Source: Chaetoceros tenuissimus (Eukaryota; Bacillariophyta; Thalassiosirophyceae; Chaetocerotales; Chaetocerotaceae). Taken from it: DNA of 64,000 bases. The stretch is taken from the NCBI GenBank assembly GCA_021927905.1, contig BLLK01000069.1, forward strand, positions 124,001 through 188,000, read 5' to 3'. A program made the translations under genes and the position numbers. Positions 4,799 through 48,160 of this stretch are shown here, in pieces. The stretch's first letter is position 1; every line of letters begins with the position of its first letter. The notes below the pieces were generated by a model. The model saw nothing but the letters and a program-made list of their open reading frames with translations. It was not told the DNA's origin and made no database searches.

Positions 4799-5536
4799 TT
4801 AAGCTTCTTTCTCATTCCTATTTCTCTTTTCATGTGCAATGATTTCAATGGCACAAGTTGAGACAGATTGAAATAATATTTGTATGACTGAATGAATAAT
4901 AACTGCATGAAATAATCTTGCAACAATGGTATTGTCACATATAAACATCTCTTCCACCTTGACCAATACTTGAACTGCAAGTAAACTGACCACTGCTCTG
5001 CACCACTTCCTCCATGCTCCTTTGCGTGTATCATCATTCCGATATTTATAACTCCTTATTCCCATTGTAATAATTGTATACAATGCAAATGGTGGGCTCA
5101 AGACTTGAAATACGATTTCTTGTTTACTTGGGTAAAACATGTTTGTTGCAATAAATATTACGGCGGATGCATATCCCACGAAACGTGCAGTATTACACGA
5201 AACATGAGCTTTTGAACCTAAGCTATTATTTAACCATAGAGAAAGAAATATGGAATGCAATCCTCCTCCAGAATCAAGATCGATCGGTACGTATCCGGTA
5301 ACATGTTGTTGAAGATTCAAATAGAATAGGAATAAAAGTGAAACCAAATAGAGCACAGCATCCATGTCTTGCATGTCCCGGTAACGTTTCATCATCAGTA
5401 CCACGGGGTACAGTTGTAACAGTAGAATAATGAGACCTGATACGGAACATGCAAAGTTATGGAATCCGTGCAATTTAGGAAGCTGATCTTCACATGAGAC
5501 AAAGTGTTCTTGATCGGAATGCCTAATGAAGCTCAT
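4799..5536 (-). CDS. multi-pass membrane protein, possibly CREST/ceramidase-like
   Basis: 245 aa from ATG 5536. About six or seven hydrophobic segments are visible (for example SGLIILLLQLYPVVLMM, AVLYLVSLLFLFYLNL, FVGYASAVIFIATNMF, VVSLLAVQVLVKV). A late CDN....LFHAVIIH pattern recalls the Asp/His arrangement of the CREST superfamily (alkaline ceramidase, PAQR, Per1), but the match is weak and the usual full motif set is not clear. Loops are short and the C-terminus is Lys/Arg/Glu-rich and cytoplasmic-looking. Treat it as an integral membrane protein of unknown function; the CREST idea is a hint only. Confidence 0.6.
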   Translation of the reverse strand: MSFIRHSDQEHFVSCEDQLPKLHGFHNFACSVSGLIILLLQLYPVVLMMKRYRDMQDMDAVLYLVSLLFLFYLNLQQHVTGYVPIDLDSGGGLHSIFLSLWLNNSLGSKAHVSCNTARFVGYASAVIFIATNMFYPSKQEIVFQVLSPPFALYTIITMGIRSYKYRNDDTRKGAWRKWCRAVVSLLAVQVLVKVEEMFICDNTIVARLFHAVIIHSVIQILFQSVSTCAIEIIAHEKRNRNEKEA

Positions 5537-6622
5537 GGGGGTTCTCTCGTTCTACTACGTCTTTGAGGCAATGTAAAGTTATCTACGTGTGCTTGATATT
5601 GGGAATCATCACAAGTATATCGGCTAAGGCTTTCAGGGAAAAAAGGATTACAAGCGTTTTTACCTTAACTGGCTATAACAATTACTAAATGGCAAGAAAA
5701 TATCATTAATTTTAATTATTTGTTTTCGTTTTGAAATCAATATTTTATTGAAAGAAATATGTAGAATATGCAATAGATTAGAGATTTTGAAACAAATGGA
5801 AAGTAGAGACTTCTACTGACATTAAGGAGCAAGTGATGACTTGCTTCTCAAAATATTATATTTGAGAGGACATTGGTACTTGTTGCTTCGTCACCAACAT
5901 CGCTTGTTTTTGGACTTTTGGATTACTTCGATTCTTGGTATGTAATATATAATATATCACCATATATTCTTGCATGGTCGTTGACTTCTATTGGCTTTTC
6001 TTCAACATCAGAATGTAGATTAAAAAGTGAGATTTTTGAAAACATCTACGTACTTCAAACATGCTCAAATTTTAGCTTACCTTCTTTATCTTCACAGATA
6101 CTCCACTCCTTCTTCAGCTGCTTCTTTTAGATTTTTTCTTCCAAGTTTTTATTGTATTTTGAATCGAATCGAAGATTCTTGGAAATAATCCCAGAGATCC
6201 AGAGCTAGTTGTCTGAAGTTGGTCTTGTTCACACCCTTGTTCTCAGGTATAGCTAAACAATGCCCCCAACCTCTATGCTTTTAATATGCAGAGTTGCCAA
6301 TTGTCTTGGTCTGTCGTGGACTCTGCCATTTTTCTTTATATGAGAACAATCAAGTGTGCTTGTTTCTTGTTAATACGAGTGAAAAAGTTCGTAGATCAAG
6401 TATGGTAAAAGAAATTGGAAGATAATTTGTGGCATAGAAAGATAATCCAGATCAAATAAGAGATATAATTGGCGACTTTGCCTTTGAATAACTTTTGTAA
6501 GGAAAAGATTTTGTTATTGATTTTAAGCCTTTTTTGTTTTGTGTTCTTTTGCACTCGGGAAATCGGAGAAACATTTTACTGGGAAACAGAAAATTTTGAT
6601 CTATTTTGGTCAAAACACGATT

Positions 6623-14026: not shown

Positions 14027-15277
14027 TTATATATATTCTTTACATTCAGGTATATCATATGGTAGACATTCAACATCATTCCGATATAAAGTACACAATT
14101 TCATCAATGCCAATTTGGCAAGCTCATTTCCATTTGTTGTCATGTTCACAAGTTCATTCCATTTGACTATCCAATCCATACCATCATTTTCATTTCCTCG
14201 TTTCATTAATGAAAATGACCGCTTGGGTTTATCACTGATTTCTTCTAGAGCATAAGTAACATTGTCCAAACTGTGTAAATCATAATACGTAGCTCGATGA
14301 CGAAGTTTATTCATGGAAATGAGATATGTAACTGGTGTAATATGTTGATCCCAAAATCCTTTTTCATCAAGTTCGTCCAAGAAATCAATTAGCCTTTGCA
14401 ATCGTCGTTCAGTAGTTGTTTGTAAGCTACCTTGACATTGATACTTTCCCTTGGCTTTGGATTCAACACCATAGGTTGCATTTAAACAAGTTTGATTCCA
14501 CCATGAAACATGTGGAGGTCGATCAATCGCACCATCTATCCAATTCAATCTCCAAAACACTTCAATTTGATGAAACCCAGCAAGTGCTCTATCCATAGGA
14601 TGACGTAATATAGATATAAACTTGTATTCATCCAAAGATGTTTCATTCATGTCTTCGAGTCGTTGTTCCAGTGTGTTACCTGCTATATATTGAAGTATAT
14701 TTTTGACAGTTGTACTAGCTGATTTGGTAATGAATGGTCCATATGCATAGTTTGTTCCATTACTTGGTATATATCCCATGTATTGCCCTTTGAAAATCAT
14801 TTTTGATGTGTTGAAGGAAAGAGATTCTACGTTGCAAATATCGATAGATGGAGGAAATAGCTTTGAATCTTGAGCTTTCGTTGGCTGATTCATAGATGGT
14901 GAGATTGTTGGTAATAATGTTGGTTCTTTGGTCAATGAATGAATTGGACTCAACGTTGGACTTTTCAAAGTAGATGTAGTTTCAATTGCTGGTAACTCGT
15001 GTTGTTGATTTACATGGACAGAAACACCAGAGTCAGTAGTAGCAGAGGTAGATGAAGTATCTACTTTATGTTGCTGATGATAGATTGAAGCTAATGAGCA
15101 GATACCAATACCAGCTGAAACACCAAGAGTAAAAATAAAGAAGAAGGACATGAAATTCAGTCGACGATGTTTGAGCGCAGCAGGAAAGGAATTTGCAAAA
15201 CCTTGGGCCTCCTCATCTTCATTCTTTGAAATATGTCCATTTCCATTTATAAATGATTCTTCTTCTTCTTTCATCAT
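14027..15277 (-). CDS. Golgi carbohydrate sulfotransferase-like protein
   Basis: 416 aa from ATG 15277. An acidic/basic cytoplasmic tail precedes one membrane anchor at about residues 43-65 (FMSFFFIFTLGVSAGIGICS). A Ser/Thr/Pro-rich stem with SPT-type spacing runs to ~140. The catalytic domain has a 5'-phosphosulfate loop, ITKSASTTVKNIL (~183-195), and a 3'-phosphate block, ILRHPMDRALAGF (~223-235), as in PAPS-dependent sulfotransferases. The C-terminus has the diatom-type LCTLYRNDVECLPYDIPEC pattern. It would transfer sulfate from PAPS to a glycan in the Golgi lumen; the acceptor is unknown. It is divergent from, and 269 bp away from, the exostosin-like gene, so the two may share a promoter. 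Confidence 0.8.
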   Translation of the reverse strand: MMKEEEESFINGNGHISKNEDEEAQGFANSFPAALKHRRLNFMSFFFIFTLGVSAGIGICSLASIYHQQHKVDTSSTSATTDSGVSVHVNQQHELPAIETTSTLKSPTLSPIHSLTKEPTLLPTISPSMNQPTKAQDSKLFPPSIDICNVESLSFNTSKMIFKGQYMGYIPSNGTNYAYGPFITKSASTTVKNILQYIAGNTLEQRLEDMNETSLDEYKFISILRHPMDRALAGFHQIEVFWRLNWIDGAIDRPPHVSWWNQTCLNATYGVESKAKGKYQCQGSLQTTTERRLQRLIDFLDELDEKGFWDQHITPVTYLISMNKLRHRATYYDLHSLDNVTYALEEISDKPKRSFSLMKRGNENDGMDWIVKWNELVNMTTNGNELAKLALMKLCTLYRNDVECLPYDIPECKEYI

Positions 15278-15546
15278 GATGGAAACTATTCTTACTTGAC
15301 GATTACAATTTCAATTGTTTTTCAGGTGAATGAACAAACAAAAAAATGAAAATTGAAGAAAAGAAGTCAGCAACATACGACTAAATAACTAGTAATTTAG
15401 TTGTCATGTTCGCTAAAAACCCTTCTCAACTGACAAACGAACAACAATGACGTTCTTCATTTCATTTTTGACCAGAAACATAATGGCTTAGCAAAACCCT
15501 TTCTCTATCCAACAGCCTCAAAATAAAAAGGAGAACATATAACTAA

Positions 15547-16734
15547 ATGATGAATTACTTCTTTCTAACAGTACTCCTTCTATTTCTAGTGTATTCTAAT
15601 TTCTCGATCATTACAATATTGGATCAAGCGCGATTGCAACAACAACAGGAAGAAATTGAAAATAATGCGAACTCGAATAGTTTCAGTTCCACTGCCAATA
15701 CAACATCTAAAGACTCTGGCAATACAGACAATGAAATATTCAATGAGACCAAACTACAGCAGTACATGTTGGACGAAAGGAGAAGGCTATTGAATGCATC
15801 TACAATCATGGATCTAGGCCAACATAAATTTGCACCAATGCCCAGTCAATTCTTTCATGATTTCTTTCAAGATATTCTATTTCTAAAATCTTGGAAAGAA
15901 ATACAAGAAGCAAATGAAACTACACGATTGGAATACTTTAGAAACTATACAGATGGTACTTCCAGTGATGTCGTACATTCTGTAGGAGTCTGTGATGCTA
16001 TACATGTATTCAAAGCTACAAATTCTACCAAGAAGCATATATTAATTGCAGGCATTAATGAAAACTGGGGAGCGTTTTCCACTCCTGTCCCGAATCGAAC
16101 TGTAGATTGGGGAGAATGGACTGAACACTTTTATAGTGAAGGATGTACCATGGATGATTTATGGCAATATCTGAACCATACAAACCTTGGAGCGATATTT
16201 ACCACAACGCATCAATGGCTAAATCATCCCAAAATATTTTCTATACCCTTGGGAGTCAAACAAAATATTCTTCATGTGATTGAAGATAACCTGGACTCGC
16301 CATTGCCTAATAAAACAGAGCTGCTATTTTTGAGTCTATCATCATCGTCAACTCGGATTCCAATTACAAATCGTATCATTCAAAATTTCAATGGAACCAT
16401 CAAAAACAAGTTTAAAGATGGGTCACATTATTTTGGAGAAATGAATAAGGCAAAGTTTGTACTATGTCCTAGTGGTATGGGATGGGATACTTACCGTGCA
16501 TGGGAATCGTTAATGATGGGTTCTATACCAATTTTGGAAACTTACTCTAGAGTAGACGGTTTTTATAAAACATTTGATGAGCTCCCAGTGCTGTGGGTCG
16601 AGCATTATGATAATGTTACACCAGCGTTGCTGGAACGTGAATATCCAAAGATACTGGCAAAGGCTTACCAATACAATTTTGAGAAATTGACAAATAAATG
16701 GTGGGTTGATTTCATTCAAAAGTTTAGAAGGTGA
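15547..16734 (+). CDS. exostosin-like glycosyltransferase (GT47 type)
   Basis: 395 aa from ATG 15547. An N-terminal hydrophobic anchor (YFFLTVLLLFLVYSNFSIIT) is followed by a Gln/Asn/Ser-rich stem. The C-terminal half carries the exostosin signature: a nucleotide-sugar binding stretch FVLCPSGMGWDTYRAWESLM and MGSIPILE at roughly residues 305-332. About ten NxS/T sites suit a luminal enzyme. GT47 proteins add GlcA, GlcNAc, Gal, Xyl or Ara to wall or matrix polysaccharides; which sugar is used here cannot be read from sequence. It sits head to head with the sulfotransferase at 14027..15277. Confidence 0.78.
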   Translation: MMNYFFLTVLLLFLVYSNFSIITILDQARLQQQQEEIENNANSNSFSSTANTTSKDSGNTDNEIFNETKLQQYMLDERRRLLNASTIMDLGQHKFAPMPSQFFHDFFQDILFLKSWKEIQEANETTRLEYFRNYTDGTSSDVVHSVGVCDAIHVFKATNSTKKHILIAGINENWGAFSTPVPNRTVDWGEWTEHFYSEGCTMDDLWQYLNHTNLGAIFTTTHQWLNHPKIFSIPLGVKQNILHVIEDNLDSPLPNKTELLFLSLSSSSTRIPITNRIIQNFNGTIKNKFKDGSHYFGEMNKAKFVLCPSGMGWDTYRAWESLMMGSIPILETYSRVDGFYKTFDELPVLWVEHYDNVTPALLEREYPKILAKAYQYNFEKLTNKWWVDFIQKFRR

Positions 16735-18628: not shown

Positions 18629-19053
18629 TTTAGTTTATCTATGGTCTAGATAATTTTGGACACATGGATCGATGCGTCGATACCGCGACCCTGGTTACTT
18701 TTCTTTTCATATGACCGCGTTTTATAAAATTAGCTCAATAGCGGTGCAATATTTCTCCGTAGGATGTTTTTTGAATTTTGACGGTTGTCATTCTGAAAGA
18801 AGTAGTAACAATTAGGATATTTTTCTAATGTTGACAAGTGTCATTATGATAGAAATAGTAGAAATGAAGATGACCTTCTTCCAGTCACTTTTCTAAAAGC
18901 GTTACAATTCTTTTGATTTGTAATCTATCGCTCAACCTCATTCCCTATATAAAAACAAGACGTACAAAGGCAACAAATAGTTCGTAGAACTTGTATAATT
19001 AAATCTTGGAAAAAACGATAGTTTTAGGTAGTAATTTACTTTATCGGAATTCA
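18629..19053. other. intergenic, 425 bp
   Basis: Upstream of the secreted protein and downstream of the fusion gene. It contains an imperfect direct repeat (about 18779-18810 and 18831-18862, TTGAC..TGTCATT.TGA.AGAA.TAGTA). Nothing else is seen. Confidence 0.5.
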
Positions 19054-22000
19054 TCAGCAAGATAAGTCGCCGTAGGAAAGATCATCAGCGAAACCCCTAA
19101 TCGCCTCTAAATCTTGAGACATTTGAGCTCTATCTAGTTCTTGTCGTCTTGGTAGTAATATCCTACCGTTATCCAAATCATATGTGTCAATCATATGCTC
19201 TGTCGAGGGTCGAGAATTCTTATCCCCTTGAAGAATTCTTTGATCAGTTCCAAGTTCCTTGAACGAATTTAATGTAGATGCATATGATTCATCGTCGTCA
19301 ATTTTAGACTGACTGTCCATATAACGCTTCATCTGTCCAGTTACATGCTGAATATCCTGGAAAAACTTCTTCCGATTGTCAACTTCAGTATCTTCTATAT
19401 CTTCCTTGAATTGTAGAGGCGTTTGTTTTGTAATTCGACCACTATCCAAATCATATATGCTTCTAATTCCCCTAATAGAAGTCTTTACCCTTTCGGGGTC
19501 CTCTTTTGTTTGTGTAATACTTCGTTCTTCTTCCCCATCCCCAGAAGGATTCAAAGTTGAATCATGGGATTCATTTTCGTCAAATTGTGATTGACTGTCG
19601 AGAAAACGCTGCATCTTCTCAGTTACATTCTCAATATCATGGAACAAATTCTGTTTGTTTTCTATTACCCCCTCCCTCTCGCTCATAGATTCAGTAGATT
19701 CTTGTGGGTCTTGGAATAAAATCTTTCCACTATCCAAATCGTATTTATTCACAATCTCTCCGTTTCCGTCTTGAAAGCCCTCTGAAGTCATGGCTTGATT
19801 GTCCATGTAACGTCGCAACTTCTCTGCAACATCTTCTATGCCCTGTAACAGATTCTGTTTATTCTCTTCATCCATCTCTGATTCTGTCGCTTCTGCTCTC
19901 TTTATTGAAATTCTGCTCGTAACTAAATCGTTTGTTTCACCAATTTTTCTGTTTAAAGATTCAAATCCTCTGGGATTGATCGTGTTGAAACTTTTAGGAT
20001 TGATCTTTTTCTTTATCGACGATTGTCTTGGTAGTGAAATTCTTCCACTTCCCATATTCATTGTGTTGCTGCTGATTTTCTTGTTGAGACTTCTGAACCT
20101 TTTCGGATTAACGGTGCTAAAACTTTTTGGATCATTAGTTCTTCTTCCTGAATATCCAGGACTTCCTGGACTTGACCTAAAGCGAGGACCAAAGCCCAAA
20201 CTATCTCTATCTAAAAATGGATTCAATGAAGAAACTTTGGATTGTTCATCATCGTATTTCGTTACATCTGCCAGAAAAGCCAAATCTAATTGATTCTTCC
20301 GTTCCAATCCAAAACTTGCATTAGACCAAGTTGATGATCTTCTTTCTACGGATGTCTCGCTATTGGCAACACGTGCAATGCGTCTATCTTCTTCATCAAT
20401 CATATCCGCATCTCCTTCCTTTCGGCGGTATATCTTGAACAGTAAAATCGCCAATACAGCACAATTTAACATGACATATAAACCAAACAATATCATTACT
20501 TCCATCCAAATTGACTCCGTATATGGATCGTTGAAGGTTGCCACATTTATTCCTCTCCTCTTCAAAATATCGATACCTACACTTTGCTCAATGTAACATT
20601 GGTTCGCTCCTACATCTGACTGACCTCCACTTCGACATCTATACGTATCTGAAGATCTGAATGACGATTTCAGTATTCCAGTGTATGTATACGTGACTGG
20701 AGATATGTAGCGCAAAAGATTGATCACGGGAGGTAATGTTGTGTAGAAACCAGCTGCTAGAAGTGAGGTCTGAGATACCAGAGTACTCACAATCATACCG
20801 ATGGATACATTTGAGGTTATTGCACCGAGGAAAGACCCGATAGAAACATAGCATAAGTTGTTCATCATTAGGAACATCGAGATCTTCAAGCACGAGTCAA
20901 TTCTTCCAAACATTCCAGCCATTGGGTAGGCGACTAGTACATGAATCAAAGGGAGCCAAGATTCGCAGACGAAAACAACTATTACCCTTGCGAGCCATAG
21001 TATGACGACATATTTCCTATTGGAAGGTAATGTGAGTGAGACGGATCATATGAATATGTAGCGAAACTTTCTTCACTTACATTTTTACATTCTTGTCCTC
21101 GAGCGACTTGGAAAAGTCAATGGCAAGGTTGCGCCAGATCGAAGTGGAACCAACCGCCGGATACATTCTTGTAAAAGTCCACAAAGTTAGAGAAAAGAAC
21201 AGAAGACCCGACTTTTGAGTGAGGCTCTCTGAGGTTTCTTTGTTCCCGACATCGTAAAATAGTAAGCCAACCAACATCGCAAGAGTCGAAACTTCAAAAA
21301 TGCGCCATAAATTTACACAACTACACAGAAGAAGTTTTAGAATGAGATAGTGTACTCATGGTCAAATGTTCGAAAAGTATTAGCTTGAGACTTACCCTGG
21401 TCTATATGCCTTGAATTGTGACGCAGTCAGTAGCTGGAGTTGTGTCCAAAAGTCGAGAGTAGAAAAGTATTGCTGGGAAATTTCATTGGATACCAAGTGA
21501 CTGATTCCTTTCTTTCCGGCAATCGAATTTTTCATATTAAATCTCATCACAATGGATTGTCTTTGGCTTTGCCTCATAGTTTCGGAGGTCTGTACTGAGC
21601 TGTTTTTAATGTAATGCTTTAATTGAATGACACTGAAAGTCAAGAAAGCAATGATTGCGAGAAAGATCAGCGTCAAACCATAATTAGGGATACGATACTG
21701 AGACCTCATTGATCTGATGTCCGTAAGAAGATTGTAAGTTACGAGTACACATGAAGATTTAATAAAAAATGCAATATATATGGTACTTACACTCCAGAAG
21801 GCTTATAAGAAAACAAGTGTGATACTTCGCTATCTACATGCGAGCATAAATAGTCACGACTGCAACGATAATCTTCTGTGAGCCCTATGCGCAGCACTGC
21901 ATCTTTATCCTGAAAGCATGTGCATGCAGGGTCTTTATTTGCACCTTTGAGAAATGGATGATCGCAACTTAGAAAATCTTCAGGTAACCATGACGAATCC

Positions 22001-23967
22001 TTAGGTGCAGTGTAGTTACCAACATTCATAATTAATGCCATCCCATCCTCTCGATGGGTTTCCAAGTGGCAATGAGCAAACCATACAGAAGGCTCAAATG
22101 TATGGATCCGAGTGACGACAGCTCCACCAGCAGGCAGAATAAAGGTATCTTTCATGACTCCATCACGAATTCTTGCATCAAGCTCTTGGAGTTTTTCCTC
22201 GGAATCATAAAATATTGGTAGCTCGCACGATGAGCGTGAGCAATGCAGCTCTCTTTTTGGTCGGTAAATGTCAAGTATTTCCATTTTATATCCATGAAGA
22301 TGTATTGGATGATCCATAAGAGACTTGTTCCTCCAAATGATGAGTACCGACGAAAATGAAGATACATGCAGCATAGCTGTATTCTCATGTAGCTCCAAGC
22401 CTGTTTGAAGAAAGTGACTATTGAGAGGATTTACATGCTGGTTGTTTAAACCGCCATCTATTCGCACAAAGTGAGCAAAGGATGGAGGAGGAGAGAACTC
22501 AAAGTCAACCGTGTGGGATTCAATAAATGTTGGTGTATATGTGAGTTCATTGTCATTCAATTCTTCTTCCTTCAAGGAAGCCAACTCAGTGATGGCTAGA
22601 CATTCTCCACTATTTTTAGCCTGTTCAATCTCGGACCGGCTATTACAGTTTATGGTCTTTCTTTCAAAGATAGGAAGATTTGATGATACTATATCCTCAA
22701 TAGGGTCAGGGATATTCATAGGAGACTCCAACACAATTGGGCTAGTAAAATTATTACTCGAATTCAATTTTCCTGGAGGCATCACATTCAATATCGCACG
22801 AACTCCATTCTAAGAAGTGCAGAACAACATTGTGTAAGTATCTAATTTCGAAGTAAATTGGCGCATTTGAAGCTTCGGCTCTAATTCACGTACCTGATAC
22901 CCTTGCTCTATGGATTCAAGTGTATCTGCTCGAATCCATACAGTTGTATTTGCCATGTCCAATGGAATATCAATTTCAACATCAAATCTTTCAGCACTAT
23001 GTAAAATCACTTCATCTACTTCATATGGTACAACTGGCTCCGAGTCAGCTGCAATGATAGTCATGGGCAAGCCATCAATACTAATACGAAATCCGTACAA
23101 GTTCCCTCCATTCAATAATCGTAACTTGTATCTTTGACCTGCTTCAACTGGAATAACTTCACGTAGTTTACCATTGCATGTTCCATAATGATACGGAAAA
23201 GAACCTACAGTAAATCCGTCATCATTTTTACACACAGGTGGATTGAGACCACCAGTCTTCTTCAATTGCTTATGTGATTCCGATACTAGATATCCATCAG
23301 CAAAGAATAAGAGTCTTTCATTACTGTAAAAGTTCAAAGAATCAAATGATCCCTGAGTCTCGATAAGAGAGTCTGTATTCTCATGTAGTTCCTTAACTAA
23401 TGTTTCTGAAAAAGTGGATCTAGGATGAACAATAAGAGGAGCTTTGATTTCATTTTTCGCGTTTACGCCAAGTGGGCCTGAATGAGTATGATACCAATAT
23501 GTACCCGGCGTCTCGTCGACTTGAAACTTGTAAACCATGGTTTCTTGAGGAGCTATGGGACACTGAGTGATACCTACAACTCCATCGTATTCGAGACTGT
23601 TCATCATTTCGAAGCCATGCCAATGAATCGAAAGTCCAGTAGAGTCAAGGTGGTTGATAAGTGTCACCTCTAGGATATCTCCTTCAATCACATGTATAGG
23701 TTGACTCATGAGAACCCCACCAGCTCCGACTCCTTGATGGCCGAATTCTGCATGTGTCGATGCAATTGTTGCATAGTCGGGTAAATGTTTATTAAATGCT
23801 GGCCATGTATTATATATAGCAGTGTTGACCTGCTGTAAGGATTGTTGAAGTGGAACATAGGAAGTCCGTATGTCGAACGTGAATTGTCTGGTTGTCGGCT
23901 GACCTAAAGCTGCACTAGTTGTGAGAATCAAGAGCAGCAGTCGTATATACCTTCTCCAGATGTCTTT
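19054..23967 (-). CDS. multicopper oxidase fused to ABCG-type transporter membrane domain, no ATPase domain
   Basis: Five exons: ~23967..22894, 22809..21791, 21713..21396, 21320..21081, 21016..19054. All introns (84, 77, 75, 64 nt) are GT-AG and frame is kept throughout, giving about 1,537 aa. The oxidase is complete: HWHG, HTHSG, HPIHLHG and HCHLETHREDGM supply the type 1, 2 and 3 copper ligands, the last Met being the axial T1 residue. A hydrophobic anchor follows (GLTLIFLAIIAFLTFSVIQL). Only ~56 residues separate it from FWTQLQLLTASQFK, where an ABCG (ABC2-membrane) domain begins. This contains TM helices and the ABCG pattern AGFYTTLPPVINLLRYISP. No Walker A, Walker B or LSGG exists in the space available. 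A ~450-residue tail contains three repeats. The oxidase would be extracellular or luminal and the tail cytosolic. The start is unresolved: the frame reads K-D-I-W-R-R-Y-I-R then a hydrophobic signal core, but no in-frame ATG precedes it; a mini-exon (ATG 24036 or elsewhere) is likely. Confidence 0.82.
19080..19880 (-). repeat. three ~91-96-residue repeats in tail of oxidase-ABCG protein
   Basis: Each unit has a helical part (NLLQGIEDVAEKLRRYMDNQ; NLFHDIENVTEKMQRFLDSQ; KFFQDIQHVTGQMKRYMDSQ) and a YDLDSG/NG-R/K-I motif. The DNA words encoding YDLD lie at about 19171, 19444 and 19732, i.e. 273 and 288 bp apart. Confidence 0.85.
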
Positions 23968-25085
23968 CTGCCTGGTGTGTATTCATTATTCTTTTGTCCT
24001 CTCTCTATCCTAATTCTCAACTGCTTTATCTTTCATGTCAGAAACTGGGAAAATTTTGAATTCGTTTTGTGTTGACTGATTACCTAGTGGCTGGTGATAG
24101 GGTTAGTTGAAGTGGCGGGCTCCTGATAATGTTCTTGTGTGGATTGATGAGGGAAACAGGATTGGAAAAATTGTATTGGGATAGATACGAATTGGATAAA
24201 TGAAATGGATTTCTTTGTCTAAACTGGTCATATTGTAGACCTTTTAATCATATTTTGACATTTAGGTGTCATTTGTAGACGTTGAGAAATTTCCTTCACA
24301 GCAGCTGCTCAGCTGCTCTTTTATATACGTACACGAACATGTTCTCCCTTTCAACTTTCAACGAAGAAGATCTACGGTGGTCTACGCACATTTGACACAA
24401 ATTTTATTAATAAAATGTAAAATAATGTAATGAGAACAAAAATCCAAATAATAATTAATTCCATTCTAATTTGATCATCCTTTTGTTAATCTATCTTGTA
24501 GGTTGTGTTCTGTGGAGTTTGCAAAATATACCAGCATTCGCAGTATGTAAGTAGGTACGAATGCTTTTATTGATTTCTTTCTTCTTACTTTGCAGTTGTT
24601 TTTCATATATGACTTGGGTATGTGTATCACTGCCGCAATGGATATAATCTAACTTTGAAAGTAAGTAGAAACATCAAATGAAAATCTTAGCTTTGAGAAG
24701 ATGAAATTTCGATTATTCAAGTGTATTGTATATTTGACTATTCGGAATACTTGCTTTTTGAGAATGACTGTCCAGTATCTTTCTTCATCATAAAGATTAA
24801 ATTATACTAATTCATGAATTACTAATCAAAAAGTTTGATTGCATTCTTAGTGGACTAGTAATGTATTTTTGAAAAAGAAGAGTGAGTTTCTCAAAACATT
24901 TTCCGTTCAGCTAAAAGACTGGATTGACACCTGTCTGGCGGAGTTTGCCTGCATCGCATTGAACAACATTCCAAAGCGTGATGATCAGTCAATAATGAGA
25001 GAGACAAAAGCACAGCAATCTAATCATCGTCTGTATACATCTCTTGCTATACATATACATTTGACTACATTAGCATTGCATCAAA
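23968..25085. other. intergenic, ~1.1 kb, shared 5' region
   Basis: Lies between the 5' end of the fusion gene (minus) and the primase gene (plus). It may contain an undetected first exon of the fusion gene. A GCAGCTGCTCAGCTGC palindrome lies near 24301. No RNA gene is seen. Confidence 0.5.
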
Positions 25086-26722
25086 ATGAATATAGGAGGA
25101 AAATCTCGCATCTCGACTCCGACTCTCAAGAAAGAAATCGTTTCTGGATCAAGTGGTCGCAATGATGTCATTCTTAGTTTCTATGGAGAGCCTCCTTCGT
25201 ACGAATTGAGTCTCGATGAATTTGAAGAATATGCGTTGGCCAGATTGAAGGTGTGTTTCGTTGCAACTTGCCTTTGCTTTGAAAAATCAAGATATTGACT
25301 TGAGATTATATCAACTTACTTGACACATGTTTTGAAATTACATGTTTTATTGACACATGTCTCTCATTACTTCTTTTCACTCCAAAGGTACTTCGCAAAA
25401 TTGAAGAATTGAAAACTCGTAATATTCCTTTTGATGTATACAAGACGTCACTTGAAAAGACTATTCAAGAAAATCTTTCCTACACTGACCCAGCCATCAA
25501 AGCTTCCTCGAAAGAAGCACTCCTAATGAAGCAAAAACGAGACACTGCATCGCATTTCATCCTTCGTGCAGCATACTGCAAAGATGAAGAATTGAGAAGA
25601 TGGTTCCTTACCCAAGAAGGTCACCTATTTAAATTTCAACTTGATAGACTTTCATCATCTTCTTCTGCTCTTCAATCCTTTCTTGACGCTAATAAACTCA
25701 AATTCAATCCTGTATCCAGTGAAGAGAAAAAGACAATCATGCCATATCTAACTTCCATTCTCAATAAAGACAAGAAAATTCCTTCTGTCAAAGAGGTGGC
25801 GGAAACTACATACTTTAAAATTCCATTTCAGGAAGCGACGGATTTGATTGCATCCAGGCAGTGTTTTGTCAAGAAGGGATTTGCATATGTGCCAATGAGT
25901 AAAATCGTCACTATTATTTTGCAAAAGTTTCGTGCTTCCTTGAGTAAAAGTTTAGCGCAGGCCAGTCGAGTGTTTGCATCTGTCACTTCGGACTTTGAGC
26001 AGATTTCTCCACTTTTGAATACCATGAATGCGCAATATACTGGAAAGGAGTACAAGGAAGATTCTGCTACGGATATGGGAGGGGAATACTCTTTGACAAG
26101 TGACAATGTGGACGACTATTCAAGTAATATGCCATTATGTATGAGAACACTTCATACTGGATTGAAACAAGATCATAAATTGAAGCATCATGGAAGATTG
26201 CAATATGGATTGTTTTTAAAGGCGGCTGGTATGAGTATGGAGGAATCCTTGAGATTTTTCCAAAAGGAATTTACAAAAATCATGACTGCCGAAAAGTTTC
26301 AAAAGGAGTATACGTACAATATTCGTCATATGTATGGTAAAGAAGGAAAGAGAACTAATTATTCTGCGTACAATTGTAACAAGATTATTATGGGCGCTCC
26401 ACCCAATACTGGAGAGCACCATGGATGTCCTTACAGACACTATGATGATGATCACCTTTCGTCGCTATTGAATAAGATGCAAATTGGAAAAGCAAGTGAT
26501 CGCAGTGAAATTATGGCTTTGAAGAAAAAGAAACATTTCACTTTGGCTTGTCAGAAGCACTTTGAAGTTTCACATCCGAAAGCAACAAGTATTCCTGATT
26601 TGAATTTGAGTGGAGTTGGTGAACATCCAAATGCATGGTATGCTGCCAGTGTCGCATATCGCGTAGCTCAAAGTGGTGGCGATTCTGTAAAGGAAGAAGG
26701 TAAAACACCTGAAAAAAAGTAA
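25086..26722 (+). CDS. PRI2: DNA primase large subunit
   Basis: Two exons, 25086..25250 and 25388..26722 (137-nt intron, GTGTG...AAAG), 499 aa, a normal length for eukaryotic PRI2/PriL. The C-terminal domain is unmistakable: SNMPLCMRTLHTGLKQDHKL, LKHHGRLQYGLFLKAAGMSM, then KEYTYNIRHMYGKEG and TNYSAYNCNKI. Four cysteines (MPLC, YNC, HGC, LAC) match the [4Fe-4S] ligands. It pairs with the small catalytic primase subunit and DNA polymerase alpha in the nucleus to start replication primers. The intron holds three ACATGT words 15 bp apart. This is an ordinary housekeeping gene. Confidence 0.93.
25251..25387 (+). other. intron in PRI2
   Basis: Donor GTGTGT after ...AGATTGAAG, acceptor ...CCAAAG. 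It joins LARLK to VLRKIEELK in frame. Confidence 0.85.
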
Positions 26723-28812: not shown

Positions 28813-30915
28813 TTAAAATTTACTTTCGAATAAGTCTGTAAGCATCGAAAAGCCATCTATAGAGATGCTTTGGATTCCTTGAACCTCGTGCTTCATGAAA
28901 AAAGAAAAGCATTCGCTCCAATAGTCCTCCACTTTTTTGACACCATTTCTTTGACAAATATTATGAATCTCTTGTATTTTTCTAGTGAATGGTCGAAATT
29001 TAGAGCTCTTCTTTGCCCATCTGGCAAACCTATCGTTCTCTTCATACCGCCTCATCGCAGCAATTTGAGCTTTGTGCATTTCTTCATTCTTATGAGCTTT
29101 CTTACCATGATTATCTTGGATAGATACTGGTGCTAGTATACATGAAGCTGTGTGAGACGCACTATGAGTACGATTGAACTCTTCTGCTGCACCACACCAC
29201 ATGTTGTCTAATCCATAGTCAATTTCATTGTCCATATAGTCTTCGACCTGATCAAAGAACCAAACAGCGAAATTTGAGTCCATCAAAACAAAGCCATTTT
29301 CGAGATATGTTGTGACTGTGCCCTCTAACTTCTTATAAGATGCAGAAGTGTATTTATTAAAAAGCGCAGAATCCTGAAAATTCACCAACTCGTTGGGCTC
29401 ATGTACCAACAGTTTAATTTTCCTTTGAAGGGATATCTCTACATTATTTCTGTAAGGAGCTGCAATTATTGAATCCTTCTTTGTTTCCATGAATGTGCTC
29501 CATGGAAAGCCATCCAAGTAAATATGATTGTCTTTGAACAATACGAAGTCAAACATCCTTAGTTGCTTCTTTATTCGTGATACAAATGTGAATTTGTTGA
29601 ATGGTTTGTCATCGACACTGACATAGAATGACTCTTTTGGCAATGATAATGAAGCTATCTGATTCGCAAAGAAGTGTTTCAATTCGATATCTACCAAAAC
29701 GACGCTCACAAACCAAAATGATTTGGGGTTGGCTTTGGCTAGGATTGCCATATCTAACTTTATCCTGTCCAATTCATTTACAATTTCATTTTCATTCCGT
29801 AAACGACAGCTCATGACAACTGCAATGCTTTCATTACGAGTATGTGATACTTGTAAATTTGGTCGAGTTTCTGATTGACCAAAAGTCAAATCTCGTTTGC
29901 TACCCAAATTCATTGCAATTGTCGTCTCAACATCTCTAGCTGTTATCCAAGGATAAGTAGATGTATAGGGTTTTGACGTAAAATAATATAAAACTTCATC
30001 AGCTACTAAAATATAGGGTTCATCCAATCTCCATTGACCTTTTTGCGAGTTGTATAATTTATCAAGAAGCTCTTTCATGCCTTTTCGATTGATGGTATAC
30101 CCTACTGTCGACCAATGCTGTGGCTCCCAAGTGATCCAATAATCTCCGTGCTTATGCAAATCTCTTTTATTCACAGCAGGATTACTTGTTATAAGTTGCA
30201 GTATAGACCAATCACTTGGAGCTTCGGCTGCATACGATCTCCAGTATTTAGCAAAGTCATTTGTCAAAAGTGAATCATCTTCAATAACTACAGCAACTTT
30301 GACACCATCATCATATGCTTGTTTGATAGCTTTCAGATGAGATAAAGTACATGCAGCTTCTCCAAATTTGTATGTATCAGGCAGATGCCTATTCTCTGGT
30401 GCAGAAAGAGTGACATTATTATTCAAAAGAAAAGTATTTTCCTCCAGCATTTGTTTTACATCGTCAATTGTCACTGCAGATACTCTGTGCAATTCAAGAT
30501 GTGCTTTTAGATCTTCATCAAAGTTCGCAAAGTCATTTTCTATCTCTTTGCGACGGTCAGGAGATGAGTCCAAGTTGACATAGTACATAGGAATCTTTAC
30601 TGATTCATCTGAAAAGAATGGACTTTTCTCGAGCTGTATTGTATTTCTAATGTTGTGCTTTTGAATTTGCTCCTCTGTTGAGTCTTCCTGCTTCATCACA
30701 GAAATAGTTTTGCTGCTTTTAGAGTAGTTCAAGGTAACTATAAATATCAAGCCCAATATTACAAAGCTCAACAGTTTCCGTCTTATAGGTAGACAGTAGA
30801 TACTTCTTCTGCGGGTTCTTATCCATTTCTTTGACTTGGGTGGAGAATGGGGATCTAGGGGCGAAGTAATTTCCGTTTTAATACGATGTGGAGACTGGCG
30901 ATTGTTGCGAAGCAT
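28813..30915 (-). CDS. bifunctional-looking Golgi glycosyltransferase: GT25-type domain plus second GT-A-like domain
   Basis: 700 aa from ATG 30915. A basic tail and one anchor (~residues 48-66, KLLSFVILGLIFIVTLNYSK) are followed by a GT25 domain: IPMYYVNLDSSPDRRKEIEN, GEAACTLSHLKAIKQAYDDG, VAVVIEDDSLL (the acidic metal motif), and WSTVGYTINRKGMKEL. After residue ~345 a second globular domain starts (VVMSCRLRNENEIV) with a GT-A-like order: FDFVLFKDNHIYLDGFPW, YGLDNMWCGAAEEF, and a late His motif (APVSIQDNHGKKAH). GT25 enzymes transfer galactose or glucose (collagen, LPS). The second domain's activity is unknown. Two domains on one anchor suggest consecutive sugar additions. Confidence 0.75.
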   Translation of the reverse strand: MLRNNRQSPHRIKTEITSPLDPHSPPKSKKWIRTRRRSIYCLPIRRKLLSFVILGLIFIVTLNYSKSSKTISVMKQEDSTEEQIQKHNIRNTIQLEKSPFFSDESVKIPMYYVNLDSSPDRRKEIENDFANFDEDLKAHLELHRVSAVTIDDVKQMLEENTFLLNNNVTLSAPENRHLPDTYKFGEAACTLSHLKAIKQAYDDGVKVAVVIEDDSLLTNDFAKYWRSYAAEAPSDWSILQLITSNPAVNKRDLHKHGDYWITWEPQHWSTVGYTINRKGMKELLDKLYNSQKGQWRLDEPYILVADEVLYYFTSKPYTSTYPWITARDVETTIAMNLGSKRDLTFGQSETRPNLQVSHTRNESIAVVMSCRLRNENEIVNELDRIKLDMAILAKANPKSFWFVSVVLVDIELKHFFANQIASLSLPKESFYVSVDDKPFNKFTFVSRIKKQLRMFDFVLFKDNHIYLDGFPWSTFMETKKDSIIAAPYRNNVEISLQRKIKLLVHEPNELVNFQDSALFNKYTSASYKKLEGTVTTYLENGFVLMDSNFAVWFFDQVEDYMDNEIDYGLDNMWCGAAEEFNRTHSASHTASCILAPVSIQDNHGKKAHKNEEMHKAQIAAMRRYEENDRFARWAKKSSKFRPFTRKIQEIHNICQRNGVKKVEDYWSECFSFFMKHEVQGIQSISIDGFSMLTDLFESKF

Positions 30916-31327
30916 CTTTTATTTTGCTATCTCCAAGATATGTAGTTAGTGACAGACTTGTTCAAATAATACAGATCGGGATGATGCGAAGGATGTAGGA
31001 TGTAGTAACTTGTGAACATGTTCAGTCATGTGGAAGATGGAAGACGAAGTTTTTGTTTCTCACTTTTAAATGAGAGCTAAATACATGTAATCGACTGTCA
31101 TTTAAAAATTTTTTAGCTATTGACACTCACTGTTCAAAATGCTCTTCCATGTTTAGTAAACATGGATCCGTATGTACGTACGTGAAAAAGAAGTAAAATT
31201 TATTGAAAATAATTCGAAAAACAATTGTTTCTTTTTCTTTTTACAAACTTCAACTAGCTATAGAAACTCATACTGAAAACATAAAAGCTGCGATCTCCCT
31301 ACTATTTGTACGCAGGCGGGGCTTACC
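30916..31327. other. intergenic, 412 bp
   Basis: 5' region of the GT25-type gene and 3' region of the next minus-strand gene. No feature recognised. Confidence 0.5.
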
Positions 31328-33235
31328 CTATCGCTTTTTACTTTTCCGCCTAGGAGTCGCACATGATCTATTCCTTTGAAATATACCTTTTAGACAATAC
31401 GCTAAAAGAACTAAGACTACAACCTTTGTCAAAAACCCTTTGAGAAATCTGGACCAATGCCGTGTTTCGTTTTCGAATATCTTGTCAATCTTTTCACCAA
31501 CTCCTTTTCCTGTTCTACACTGAAAGTAATTCAATTTTGCAAAGAATTCATTTTTGATACTGTGAAGGTTATTGAATTGACCACCCTCAACTGATTCCTT
31601 GTACTCTTCGTCAAAAAAGAGAAAAAGTCTAATGATCTCCCAACCTTGCTTGTTCACAATGTGAGATAGCCACATATCCTCCAAAAATTTGTATTTCTCC
31701 TCAAGACTATACAATTCCTTGTACAGAAATATGGATGCATCTATTATAGACATCCCTGTGCCTCCATATTGATAATGTGTCACGTCAAGTCTATAGCCTG
31801 CCCTCTGGGATGGACGAGAGATTAGAAACGGAAAAGCATTCCAATAATCTTTGTCATTTTTTCGCCATGTCTTGCCAAACCATGTCTTGTATGTCATTGG
31901 TTGACGCTTCTTATACAATTCTGCGATTGTATCTTTTCTAACATATTGGTCATCATCAATCATAATGATATAGTCTCCAGGCTCCTTTTGTATGATTTTC
32001 TGAGCCAATAGAAACCGCGCAAAGCCTCCTTGATTCCCTCCCATGTTTTCAACGTCAATTGATAATGATAGTTTGTCGCTAGAAGCTCTGACAACATCAT
32101 TTGCTATGGAAGTCAATTCATTTTGCCTTTCCGGACTATTGTTGCAAATGTGTATTCTCAATTCATGTCCCGGTGGCAGTTTCGACATGGCAAGCCTATT
32201 GAAAAATTCGCGTGAATTTTTCCTCTTGTAAATACACGAAATGACGTGAATCACTTCATTCTGTTTCAAGGAAGGTGGACGATTATTAATCAATTCCTTA
32301 TCACCTTGAATCACTTCTTTCTTGAACACCTTTAGACCATTTCTAGAATCAAAGGTGTAATTATACAATGCCTTTTGATCACCAATGTACTTTATCCGAT
32401 CAAGTCCAGCCATTTCCATAAATTTGAAAATAAAGGGTCGATCTGTAGCTTTTTGCAACCAATTTCCATCATCTCTTTGAAAATCTTTTTCTTCCAAATG
32501 CTGTAGTAAATGCGTTTGAAACATTCTCGGATGGCAAAAGGACCAAATAGAATTCCGTATAGTCTTGACAGAAGTTCGCAATTTCCATTGTATAGGTTTA
32601 CACTGCTCACTGTATTTGCCATTATGTCGACCCCACGCAAACCATGCTTTGGATTCCTTGAGTCTCTTGTATACATACGCAATTACATGTTCATCTGCAA
32701 GACTATCATCTCCGTCAACAATCAATGTGTATTCATATGGCATAGCTTGCGATCGTATATATTCAAATAATTTCCATTTTCCATATGCAGAACCATATTT
32801 TTCCTGACCATTATTGGATAAAAACGTGACAGACATACGATCTTGATAATATTTCTTTTGTGCTTCGGTAAACATGTCAATACTATAGTCTTCAAAGACG
32901 ACCACGTGAACATTTGCAAAGCCAGTATTGACCTGATGTTGAATAGATTGTAGACATCTTTCGAGGCCTTTTGTTTCATTCCATGCTGGCATTGCAATCC
33001 ATAGTGTTTCATCAGTGCTATTGCTAGGTGTACATATTTTAGGCTCAATGACTTTGCTTTCAAGTTCAGAAGAAGAGTGTTTTATTCTGCGAATGTATCC
33101 CTTTATCCTTGAAGGTGCAGCAGCAGCTATTTGTGCACATGTAGCAAAGTCTAATGAACAGTACAAAGTAAATATGATCAATGTGAATGTATGTATCCTC
33201 CTTCCTATCCTTGATGTAGCATTTCTATTTTTCAT
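31328..33235 (-). CDS. double-domain GT2-type glycosyltransferase, copy A
   Basis: 635 aa from ATG 33235, N-terminal anchor at ~15-33 (HTFTLIIFTLYCSLDFATC). Domain 1 is GT2-like: ETLWIAMPAWNETKGLERCL, VHVVVFEDYSID, and YTLIVDGDDSL with an intact DxD. Domain 2 repeats the theme: VIHVISCIYKRKNSREFF, LRIHICNNSPERQNEL, YIIMIDDDQYV (DDD), then YGGTGMSIID and KFLEDMWLSHIV, the acceptor/base region of GT-A enzymes. The C-terminus has a second hydrophobic stretch and a basic end, so the protein may span the membrane twice. It is a diverged duplicate of the gene at 33729, head to head with it over 493 bp. Confidence 0.75.
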   Translation of the reverse strand: MKNRNATSRIGRRIHTFTLIIFTLYCSLDFATCAQIAAAAPSRIKGYIRRIKHSSSELESKVIEPKICTPSNSTDETLWIAMPAWNETKGLERCLQSIQHQVNTGFANVHVVVFEDYSIDMFTEAQKKYYQDRMSVTFLSNNGQEKYGSAYGKWKLFEYIRSQAMPYEYTLIVDGDDSLADEHVIAYVYKRLKESKAWFAWGRHNGKYSEQCKPIQWKLRTSVKTIRNSIWSFCHPRMFQTHLLQHLEEKDFQRDDGNWLQKATDRPFIFKFMEMAGLDRIKYIGDQKALYNYTFDSRNGLKVFKKEVIQGDKELINNRPPSLKQNEVIHVISCIYKRKNSREFFNRLAMSKLPPGHELRIHICNNSPERQNELTSIANDVVRASSDKLSLSIDVENMGGNQGGFARFLLAQKIIQKEPGDYIIMIDDDQYVRKDTIAELYKKRQPMTYKTWFGKTWRKNDKDYWNAFPFLISRPSQRAGYRLDVTHYQYGGTGMSIIDASIFLYKELYSLEEKYKFLEDMWLSHIVNKQGWEIIRLFLFFDEEYKESVEGGQFNNLHSIKNEFFAKLNYFQCRTGKGVGEKIDKIFENETRHWSRFLKGFLTKVVVLVLLAYCLKGIFQRNRSCATPRRKSKKR

Positions 33236-33728
33236 CTTCGAGCAGTTTTGTGCTTTAGCTAGCTAGTTACTTTTCTGGTTCTTTCTTTTTTTGCCTTTGG
33301 CGATGAAGAGTGGTCTATGGCTGTAATACAAGCCGATGAGTACAAGTAGCTGATTCTATTATTCGTAGAATACCTATGGACTCGTTGCCGATAATTGTAA
33401 TACCGCGTACGTCAAAGATGCAAGATGCAAAATGTGAAATGTGGAACATTTTTCAACCCGGTTCATCATTGGACATTTCCTAAAAAAGAATAAGGAAGAA
33501 AGGGGAAGAAAGGGGAAAGACAGAAAAAGAAAGCTAATTATCTCTAATTTATCATGGGTCTTACTCATTTTTAATTTGAACATCCCTTTTTTTTTTTCGT
33601 TTGCTTTTTTGAAAATATTTGAAGCGCAACCAACATGAGTTGAAACAGCAGCTAATTACAAACACATTCATATTTCTAAGAAATGCACAGCTCTGTAGCT
33701 GTGTTCAATATATTGCTTACTCTAAAGA
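33236..33728. other. intergenic, 493 bp, between inverted paralogues
   Basis: Shared 5' region of the two GT2-type paralogues. It contains a purine-rich run (~33485-33530) and a T11 tract near 33587. No other feature. Confidence 0.5.
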
Positions 33729-44020: not shown

Positions 44021-44998
44021 TTACAGTTCAGTTATGAACGTTGACCTCAGTGAGTATTCATCACCAAATGTATCTTCGACCATTCTGTAACCAAACTTCT
44101 CAAAGTCAGGTTGAGCAAAGTCATTTATCATCTTGATGGTTTTGGAATCCAAGTCACGATAGGTGAGTTTCCTTTCCTTGTCTGTGTAAACCCCACTATC
44201 TTTCTTCGAAGGCAATGTTGCATTGATTCCAAACTTTTTCATGAGTAAATCAAATTCTTTTCCTAGATCTTCATAGTGAATTAAATGTTGAATCACTACT
44301 TCGTCGCCATCAAACACGTATTCCACTTGATTGATAAAGTTGTTAAATGCCAAAATATATTCCGACTTTATTTGTTCTATCGTCAATGCACCGTTTTTGG
44401 TCCTCATTTTATATTCTTTTGTAGCATTTTTCACAGTAGATACAAGTTTTTGAGCCCACAAGTTCAAATTAACTGGATCATTCGGATCCTTGTCTCTCTG
44501 TATATCTTTCTTATATTTGGCTTGAAAGCCTGCCCAAGGGCAGTAATACTCACTTATAATTCTAGCATATGGATTGCGAATGACAGCAAATAATTCTGCA
44601 TTTGTATATGGATTTTGACTATTTTTCACATACTTTTTCAAGAATTTCGGGGGATTATGCCAGGGAGATCTCAATATATGTTTAGGGTTGTAATACTCAA
44701 AATCAGGTGTATTGCATCCAACTCCAAAGCCGACCTTGCTCAAACCAATTTTAGCAGCCAGCTTTGTAAAGTTTGACCAATGACATGATCCCCATAGAAT
44801 ACCATGCTGTGCTCCAACTTTTTCTATTGCCGACCCTCCCGTCTTTGTGATGTGTACAAACTCCAGTTGATTCATTAGCAGTGTGTTGGTAGCTTGTTCC
44901 TCATACCTATTGTTGTACAGATATGTAGCTTCAAAAAGCAGCAGACTTGAATACATAATCAAAGATGCTCTTAGAAATCCAATCATTTTCAATGGCAT
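44021..44998 (-). CDS. Golgi sulfotransferase-like protein, copy A
   Basis: 325 aa from ATG 44998, short N-terminal anchor (FLRASLIMYSSLLLFEATYL). 5'-phosphosulfate loop: VHITKTGGSAIEKVG (~48-62). 3'-phosphate block: AVIRNPYARIISEYYCPWAG (~138-157). The rest matches the Sulfotransfer_2-type layout, ending with DLDSKTIKMINDFAQPDFEKFGY. It is the closest relative in this window of the gene at 46029 (shared HITKTGGSA, RNPY.R.ISE.YCPWAG and DFEKFGY). It would sulfate a glycan in the Golgi lumen using PAPS. Confidence 0.8.
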   Translation of the reverse strand: MPLKMIGFLRASLIMYSSLLLFEATYLYNNRYEEQATNTLLMNQLEFVHITKTGGSAIEKVGAQHGILWGSCHWSNFTKLAAKIGLSKVGFGVGCNTPDFEYYNPKHILRSPWHNPPKFLKKYVKNSQNPYTNAELFAVIRNPYARIISEYYCPWAGFQAKYKKDIQRDKDPNDPVNLNLWAQKLVSTVKNATKEYKMRTKNGALTIEQIKSEYILAFNNFINQVEYVFDGDEVVIQHLIHYEDLGKEFDLLMKKFGINATLPSKKDSGVYTDKERKLTYRDLDSKTIKMINDFAQPDFEKFGYRMVEDTFGDEYSLRSTFITEL

Positions 44999-45002
44999 TT
45001 TA

Positions 45003-46028
45003 CTTATGTTCGATCATAGGTCTCTGATTCTTCACAGTCTATGAACTTGTCTTCAAAGCTATCTGTTCCATCTTTCCTTTTTGGGGCAGCGCCCCGATAT
45101 TCCTCCTCCGCGTCATATACGTTAAAGAGCCAGTAATGCCCTATTGGAGACCTACATTTTTTTTTTGAATTTTGTCGCAGAAACGAAATTTCCAAACCTA
45201 ATATCAACTCCATTTCAGAATATGCTGTATTGATAGTAGCAACTAGAAATCTTCATATCTATATTAACTAGGGACAATATAGGGTTTTGGAATTGTGCTC
45301 TTGTGTATGGAGATATAAGAGCACAAACACATTTATCGTTTTTTGCAGACTGTCGCAGAAATTAATTCAAAACATATTCAAGCGAAATTATGCATATGAA
45401 TATTGACAAGTCAATTCCTCGCTTTTTGTCACATTTAAGGTTTGAATCAATGGGATTGAAAATACATACCATACTATCTTACGTTACGTAGTTGCCCTGC
45501 CCTTAATTGCGACGGTGTGAGCGCTTCAGCGCGGGGGACACAACCGGCTTCTTGGAAGCTTGTTGCACAAATCAAACAGGTTTTGGCTTGCCAATCAAAG
45601 GGGTGAAAGGCGCGGCCCCACTTTGCACCGCAACCTGATTATTTACTTTTTTCTAACGGTTGAATATATGTGCCTGTGCTCGTGCAAAACCGTTATGGGT
45701 ATGACAGTTTTTAGTTTTTAATGACGAATGAGAAAAATACCGTTAGGAGCAAGGAACAATAAGCAATCAGTGTTAGCTGAGATTTTGGCAATCTCTCAAT
45801 GGAGACATCCGGCTTGCTAAATGTAGCAGGTTTTTAGCCAACTGAGTAAACAACTTAGGGAAATGAGTGCAATTATAAACTTTTTTGAAGAACGCAAATA
45901 ATACAATATTGACGGCCCCAGAACTTTTTCATTCTTTTGATGTACGTACGAACAAGCTATATCAATTTTAAAAAATCTAATTTTGTGTAAAATAGAATTT
46001 TAACGATATTGACATACGTACTGACAAC
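45003..46028. other. intergenic, ~1 kb, with a GC-rich island
   Basis: Contains GGGGCAGCGCCCC palindrome at ~45083 and a GC-rich island at about 45493-45636. A 69-codon frame at 45004..45213 is open but I cannot support it as a gene. Confidence 0.5.
45493..45636. other. GC-rich structured island of unknown nature
   Basis: Sharp local GC increase with short stems (GAGCGCTTCAGCGC; GCTTCTTGGAAGC; GTGTGAG...GACAC) in otherwise AT-rich DNA. It has no open frame. It could be an ncRNA, a transposon scrap or a promoter island; I cannot decide. Confidence 0.35.
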
Positions 46029-47165: not shown

Positions 47166-48160
47166 TATACAGGGCCTTCAGGACCATACAAAATTTAATG
47201 CCCACAGAAATCCTTGGAAATTTTTTATCCTTATTGGTTGGGTACCGTTCATTAGTAAATTGGTGGAAGTAAAAAGGGGGGACACTTTTTCTGCTCAAAT
47301 ACGATTTTCCAGAAAAACTTTTTGGAAAAACCGAAAACACTACCATAGAGAATCAAAAGTTCTATACGGTAGTGTTCTCGCTTTTTTGAATAGGTTTTTG
47401 CCGAAAATCGTATTTGAGGAGAAAAAAATTTGCTCTGATTTTTGTGTCGTCTCGACTTGGTCGTGCTTTTGGAGATGACACTTAATGATGACGTCATACT
47501 TAACAATCTTGTTTCAAAGTGTCCAATTTGTTAAGCTAATTCTCCAGAGACACCTGAAAATAAAGTTTGCTTAATTATGTAGAAACTTCATTTCTGTCTG
47601 TTTTTTTACTTTATTTGGCGGAATCAACGGATTCTCTGTCGTAAGAGCTTTCGAATGATGTGTCGGGTTTGTTTGTACCCCTCCAGGAAGGGGATGCTCC
47701 CTTCCACCAATTTTCTAATGAACGGTATGTAGGTTCTTACCTTTTATTTCTATTAGTCTAAGTTCAAAAATACGCAAAGCTTGCGAGCTTGTTCACTAAC
47801 TTTTTTCTTTTGTGAAAAAGTTCGTTTATGTGCAATTGCTGACGTCATAATTGCGTCAGAATATTGCATGTCATTGTTTCCATTTATGTATGCCTCATCA
47901 GTGTTCACACATGGTTCATGAATTTTTATACATTCACTCTATTCCACAATACCATTTATCATTGAACCACCATCATCAAAAAGTTCTTCACTACAGTGCA
48001 GATCGTTCCATGGCTTTTCTGAAAAAAAAATTAGGTGAAATCGGGGGTCAAAATCGCGTGAACAGAAGGGGCTTACAATTTGCAAACTACACCAGTATTT
48101 CATGTAGCTTGGCTTGTAGTATCCAAAGGAAAAATATATTCTGAAAATCAATTCATAAAA
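47166..48160. other. intergenic, 995 bp, occupied in part by a MITE
   Basis: 5' regions of two divergent genes (sulfotransferase B, minus; glycosyltransferase at 48161, plus). The MITE-like element 47245..47725 fills about half. Confidence 0.6.
47245..47725. mobile_element. MITE-like element flanked by TA, with internal hairpin
   Basis: 25-bp terminal inverted repeats, 47245..47269 (CCGTTCATTAGTAAATTGG then TGGAAG) and 47701..47725, with one mismatch. Each end abuts TA (47243-47244, 47726-47727), as for Tc1/mariner-derived elements. An internal foldback spans 47294..47418 with ~57-nt arms (CTCAAATACGATTTTC...GAAAATCGTATTTGAG; AACACTACC...GGTAGTGTT). There is no coding capacity. Confidence 0.75.

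Follow-up and report, generated by a model that had tools for sequence, protein, structure and literature searches.

In yeast, the membrane ferroxidase Fet3p has Ftr1p as its partner, and oxidase and permease are thus found in two proteins. In the ABCG proteins of the ATP-binding cassette (ABC) family, the ATPase precedes the membrane domain in the chain, and it is generally assumed that an ABC membrane domain does not function without its ATPase. A gene on the minus strand of a 64,000-nucleotide stretch of the Chaetoceros tenuissimus genome (contig BLLK01000069.1, positions 124,001 to 188,000; the whole stretch is called the window here) resembles parts of both systems. Its predicted protein consists of a multicopper oxidase (MCO) of the Fet3/laccase type, a membrane anchor, a short linker, and an ABCG-type membrane domain, and it has no ATPase. 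Where Fet3p ends, the window chain continues into the ABCG-type domain, and compared to ABCG half-transporters (ABCG1, ABCG2, ABCG5/8, and plant ABCG25), it is without a nucleotide-binding domain and carries the oxidase and anchor in front. A first-pass annotation of this DNA knew of no described protein with this order, and we likewise found no description of an MCO fused with ABC2_membrane in the open-licence PMC literature. For the diatom MCO or "FET" genes, among them T. pseudonana FET3 (JGI 5574), the available part of the published account (PMC4460010) mentions no ABC-type domain, and the term "ABC transporter" occurs zero times in its main text.

Five minus-strand exons join into a single open frame of 1542 codons (window positions throughout). 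Exon 1 (23982-22894), whose 5' limit is set by the open frame, holds a signal-peptide-like stretch (~23943-23899), cupredoxin domain 1 (Cu-oxidase_3, 23736-23419, with HxHG at 23625-23617 and HTH at 23490-23482), and cupredoxin domain 2 (Cu-oxidase, 23199-22897). Intron 1 (22893-22810; 84 nt; GTACGT..TTAG) is followed by exon 2 (22809-21791), which carries cupredoxin domain 3 (Cu-oxidase_2, 22431-22018) and the copper motifs HPIHLH (22311-22294) and HCHLETHREDGM (22074-22039). Beyond intron 2 (21790-21714; 77 nt; GTAAGT..TCAG), exon 3 (21713-21396) encodes the membrane anchor (~21682-21614), the linker (21613-21497), the elbow helix, and the beginning of ABC2_membrane. Introns 3 (21395-21321; 75 nt) and 4 (21080-21017; 64 nt) flank exon 4 (21320-21081), which contains transmembrane helices TM1 and TM2, and exon 5 (21016-19054) supplies the remaining ABCG-type domain up to ~20413, a polar tail, and the stop codon. 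All four introns are GT..AG.

Pfam matches on the window protein are, in order, Cu-oxidase_3 (4.1e-25), Cu-oxidase (2.2e-15), Cu-oxidase_2 (3.3e-20), and ABC2_membrane (9.3e-16), and ABC_tran has no match at E<=1. All 11 copper ligands of types 1, 2, and 3 (10 His and 1 Cys), with roles that we assigned by motif rules, are present together with the axial Met in the window gene, in its second copy (L028), and in a paralog (L029). The anchor occupies approximately residues 714-736 and ABC2_membrane begins at 793, which leaves a gap of 56 residues. The membrane part is a complete ABCG-type six-helix domain whose match to the ABCG fold takes in the elbow-helix region. We infer that the oxidase lies outside the cell and that the linker and tail are cytosolic. 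The first-pass annotation had thus described correctly a single protein across four introns, a complete oxidase, an ABCG-type six-helix domain behind an anchor, and an interval of ~56 residues with no nucleotide-binding domain. Its position 23967 is an exon start as drawn and not a demonstrated start of the protein. Exon 1 has no in-frame ATG ahead of the oxidase domain, and the ATG at 23986 is in a different frame; five candidate 5' mini-exons could supply a start codon. The long, polar tail (20412-19057) contains three similar units, each with YDLDxG(R/K)I near its end; it is much shorter in L028, and ADDLSxGDxSC ends both copies.

Judged by its copies, the window locus is one gene. In the genome searched (41.0 Mb in 68 contigs, with the window at C54:124001-188000), ABC parts that are 94% and 44% identical adjoin MCO matches elsewhere, and with the same architecture found again in other diatoms, the arrangement is well beyond coincidence. 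The second copy, L028, lies on the same contig as the window gene and has six exons encoding 1192 aa; the position of intron 1 and the exon junction are the same as in the window gene, and in the DNA comparison the likeness of the two is confined to the gene itself. In the third gene, L029 (contig C16, 1227 aa), a single exon runs from the oxidase end via the anchor into the membrane domain, so that intron 2 has no counterpart there. Fused proteins that span this junction also occur in transcriptome-derived sequences from Pseudo-nitzschia pungens (P0002), Coscinodiscus wailesii (P0013), and Conticribra weissflogii (P0018), in a further one (P0023), and in P. multistriata (P0004, named in UniRef as an ABC-2 type transporter domain protein). 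An origin from two genes, or from a chimeric assembly, that only read as one across intron 2 would be consistent with the immediate stop that follows the oxidase if intron 2 is retained and with the lack of a clear start codon in the window copy, but the shared junction of L028, the continuous exon of L029, and the whole fused proteins in three named diatoms and P. multistriata contradict such an origin, which we consider extremely improbable and reject. Reading into intron 2 gives a TAA stop straight after the oxidase in both copies (window 21790-21714; L028:3468-3540), and a transcript that keeps this intron would thus encode an oxidase lacking its anchor.

Both halves of the gene are under purifying selection, since the ratio of nonsynonymous to synonymous divergence (dN/dS) between the window copy and L028 is low in the oxidase exons (0.23 and 0.175) and in the membrane domain (0.17 and 0.105); it is 0.34 in the anchor plus linker and 0.49 in the tail. 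Synonymous divergence (dS) reaches 0.88 in oxidase exon 2 (window 22809-21791 vs L028:2425-3467), whereas exon 1 and the exons of the membrane domain have values of 0.26-0.32, the tail 0.37, and the anchor plus linker 0.41; the raised value of oxidase exon 2 suggests a mosaic history or gene conversion. The last membrane-domain exon also occurs in partial copies at L028:5263-5985 (in tandem, behind L028) and dispersed at L030 (C32, ~5475-6401) and L031 (C47, ~4892-5786), with no oxidase match in the stretches examined.

The first protein search gave 43 matches, from an incomplete list in that each protein search scored ~8000 candidates. By their precomputed domains, 27 have all three Cu-oxidase models with ABC2_membrane and five have at least one Cu-oxidase model with ABC2_membrane, so that the combination is present in 32 of the 43; one match has ABC2_membrane alone, and 10 have no ABC2_membrane in the precomputed list. 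The fused relatives that bear organism names are diatoms. When 36 relatives were scanned with Pfam, ABC2_membrane was found in 34 and the Cu-oxidase models in 31-35, and of the 10 families that matched at E<=0.1, none was ABC_tran, which is thus seen in 0/36. P0005, P0006, and P0021 are listed with an isochorismatase-like hydrolase domain (PF00857); placed by eye, it lies in the linker of P0005 and in the C-terminal tail of P0006. The cytosolic slot of the fused protein thus seems to accept other parts, such as a second enzyme on the same chassis.

More distant relatives retain the remains of an ATPase at the site of the window linker. A search with the Conticribra protein led to P0048-P0051, and a search with P0048 led to P0072-P0076. 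These nine proteins, which come from contigs and one EukProt transcriptome, consist of an oxidase and, after an anchor placed by eye, a ~250-residue stretch that leads into ABC2_membrane. Pfam gave ABC_tran matches only in P0072 (E 0.01) and P0076 (E 0.14), both below the cut-off, and the stretches were recognized by a profile built from the nine segments (P0077, which is truncated and reads into a similar stretch, was left out). Against the PDB, this profile found 231 sequences at E<=1, and the 60 matches listed are all ABC ATPases by name, including ABCG25 (8.3e-11), CDR1, ABCG1, ABCG5, and ABCG8, as well as LolD and MalK, which are likewise ABC ATPases. In the profile alignment, the Walker A motif GxxGxGK[ST], the LSGG signature, the Walker B Asp, and the H-loop His are absent in 9/9. 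Because the ATPase of ABCG proteins precedes the membrane domain, the stretch between anchor and membrane domain is most simply read as an ATPase remnant in place.

The ATPase, then, apparently decayed in place and was later lost, and the fused protein probably operates without being powered by ATP. The likely order is that an oxidase was first fused N-terminally to an intact ABCG half-transporter, that the intervening ATPase lost its catalytic motifs (which one group of relatives would still show in decayed form), and that the decayed ATPase was then deleted in the group containing the diatoms. This differs from the first-pass annotation, in which the oxidase had replaced the ATPase; no such simple replacement took place, as nine relatives retain both the oxidase and, behind the anchor, a dead ATPase. 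A hidden ATPase exon was also considered and rejected: from exon 1 up to the neighboring gene (23983-25303), the longest minus-strand frame is 60 aa, and an ATPase was found neither in the window gene nor in the 36 relatives, but only as a dead domain in the distant group.

A single fusion event is the simplest reading of the trees, although the oxidase half does not prove it. The membrane-domain tree places both fused groups on one side against six of the genome's own ABCGs with support of 99/96, in a topology with long ABCG branches and with the truncated P0020 placed among the ABCGs. In the oxidase tree, which used 25/56 family rows with other MCOs as outgroups, the fused groups come together with support of 77/61. 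Paralog L033 (G000:C39:263501-271000), an anchored oxidase with a short tail and no ABC domain, stands beside L029 at 100/100 in the oxidase tree. Its membrane domain was probably lost secondarily, leaving a Fet3-like layout, and the oxidase and membrane halves are therefore separable.

One clade of fused proteins has lost the type-1 Cys (absent in 19/19) and two type-3 His, and with these copper ligands gone its members cannot be four-copper oxidases. The oxidase and membrane folds are kept, as seen in a predicted model of P0023 whose confidence is modest (pLDDT 69.2) and from which only the overall folds were used. Within this copper-dead clade, the outer domain is more alike than the membrane domain, with means of 63.0% vs 52.4% in 105 pairwise comparisons among 15 proteins, and the outer domain would act there as a binding and gating part only.

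Compared to ABCG half-transporters, the ATPase-less fused proteins have lost the Glu of the coupling loop and have gained new charged residues. This Glu corresponds to E458 of ABCG2, which is described as part of a conserved R383-E458 bridge (PMC7756363). It is present in all 15 controls, namely 6/6 ordinary ABCG membrane domains of the genome and 9/9 proteins of the dead-ATPase group, and in 0/33 ATPase-less fused proteins. The essential loop Tyr (ABCG2 Y464) is found in 6/6, 9/9, and 7/33, respectively, and the window gene has neither residue at the aligned positions. Loop length varies in some members, which makes these single-position counts less sure there; a loose Glu-then-Tyr pattern anywhere in the loop occurs in 6/6, 9/9, and 4/33, and in the three of these four that were listed it lies at another place. 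The docking loop thus survived the loss of ATPase activity but not that of the ATPase domain. In TM1, Glu818 (21295-21293) is shared by 33/33 ATPase-less and 9/9 dead-ATPase proteins and by 0/6 controls (control L004 is poorly aligned there), which ties the two fused groups together. Arg860 (21169-21167) and Glu907 (20964-20962), the latter within a strongly hydrophobic stretch, are present in 33/33 ATPase-less proteins and in none of the dead-ATPase group or the controls.

These residues bear on how the fused protein might work. ABCG proteins work as dimers, and since the ABCG fold is matched up to and including the elbow-helix region, the membrane domain could pair with a partner, either a second ABCG protein or a free ABCG ATPase, and draw on the partner's ATP (19/119 ABC_tran candidates were scored in a genome search for free ABCG ATPases). 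The loss of the coupling Glu in every ATPase-less member counts against a partner ATPase in trans, as do the reduced counts of the loop Tyr and of the loose motif; such pairing therefore seems quite unlikely, and the pseudo-subunit role proposed by the first-pass annotation is weakened. We tentatively prefer an ATP-independent, oxidase-gated permease or transceptor whose membrane domain is opened by, or fed from, the oxidase, and whose substrate is probably iron. The membrane domains would dimerize in the ABCG fashion and work without ATP; ferrous iron, another reduced metal, or a phenolic would be oxidized on the outer face, and the oxidized product would be passed to the membrane domain with its new invariant charges. 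The oxidase and permease of yeast Fet3 and Ftr1 would in this way be combined in one chain, and redox-coupled transport of this kind is what we infer for the fused protein.

Close behind in probability stands a receptor or scaffold without passage, in which the ABCG-type domain moves nothing but dimerizes and presents at the surface the oxidase or, for the copper-dead clade, a pseudo-oxidase that binds metal or ligand, and in which a signal, or cargo for endocytosis, is passed to the cytosolic linker and tail. Such a pseudo-transporter would fit the joint absence of the ATPase and the coupling Glu, the clade that lost its copper ligands yet kept an outer fold more alike than its membrane domain, the varying add-ons such as the isochorismatase-like domains of P0005 and P0006, and the existence of L033, which manages without a membrane domain. 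On the other hand, the invariance of Glu818, Arg860, and Glu907 in or beside the membrane helices and the low dN/dS of the membrane domain suggest more than anchoring. Several observations weigh against the permease or transceptor that we prefer. Oxidation cannot drive every member, given that the copper-dead clade retains the membrane domain, and the position of L033 beside L029 makes the domain dispensable in at least one paralog. In three of the nine dead ATPases, the catalytic Walker B position is still occupied by Glu, and in the oxidase tree rival placements of the fused groups (p 0.20 and 0.22) were not rejected. The absence of an FTR1 (PF03239) match from this genome, a difference from the Fet3/Ftr1 system, comes from a six-frame exon search with one candidate scored, which could miss an intron-split gene. 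No iron genes were found near the window gene among the 20 window open frames scanned (30 of at least 220 aa were listed). Groussman et al. 2015 (PMC4460010) report that diatom MCOs do not conserve the residues of the yeast ferroxidase.

The likeness of the window oxidase to Fet3p also has limits, since fungal laccases lie within 1 Z unit and ferroxidases are therefore not singled out. As for regulation in other diatoms, T. pseudonana FET3 is described as not iron-regulated, unlike FTR and the reductase, in a review (PMC7676907), and MUCOX2 of T. oceanica is reported to increase when iron is low (PMC3491386). A broader reading, which we regard as unlikely, is that an ABC membrane domain has turned into an ATP-independent permease powered by oxygen chemistry, with the oxidase loading and gating an ABCG-fold path, and that many diatom "FET3 ferroxidases" are misread members of this family. 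Under this oxygen-chemistry reading, living relatives would display a decay series from a dead ATPase to a lost ATPase to lost copper sites, ending in a metal-binding transceptor.

Elsewhere in the window, the gene is adjoined by a DNA primase large subunit (25304-26722, plus strand), and a 53-bp unit is present in ~2 repeats 3' of the gene (18760-18860). Polysaccharide-type genes are also present, with sulfotransferase-like frames on the minus strand at 14027-15310 (just under the Pfam cut-off), 44021-45013, and 46029-47177, an RXYLT1/exostosin-like frame (15547-16734, plus strand), and two glycosyltransferases (28813-30918 and 31328-33262, minus strand).

Taken together, the proteins form a marine family with a dead ATPase in one group and none in the others, while the membrane part is conserved behind a surface copper oxidase. 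The family is a natural test case for the ways in which an ABC transporter may switch to another source of energy or turn into a receptor, and it bears on iron and copper uptake in diatoms, whose MCO genes have been catalogued as putative ferroxidases.

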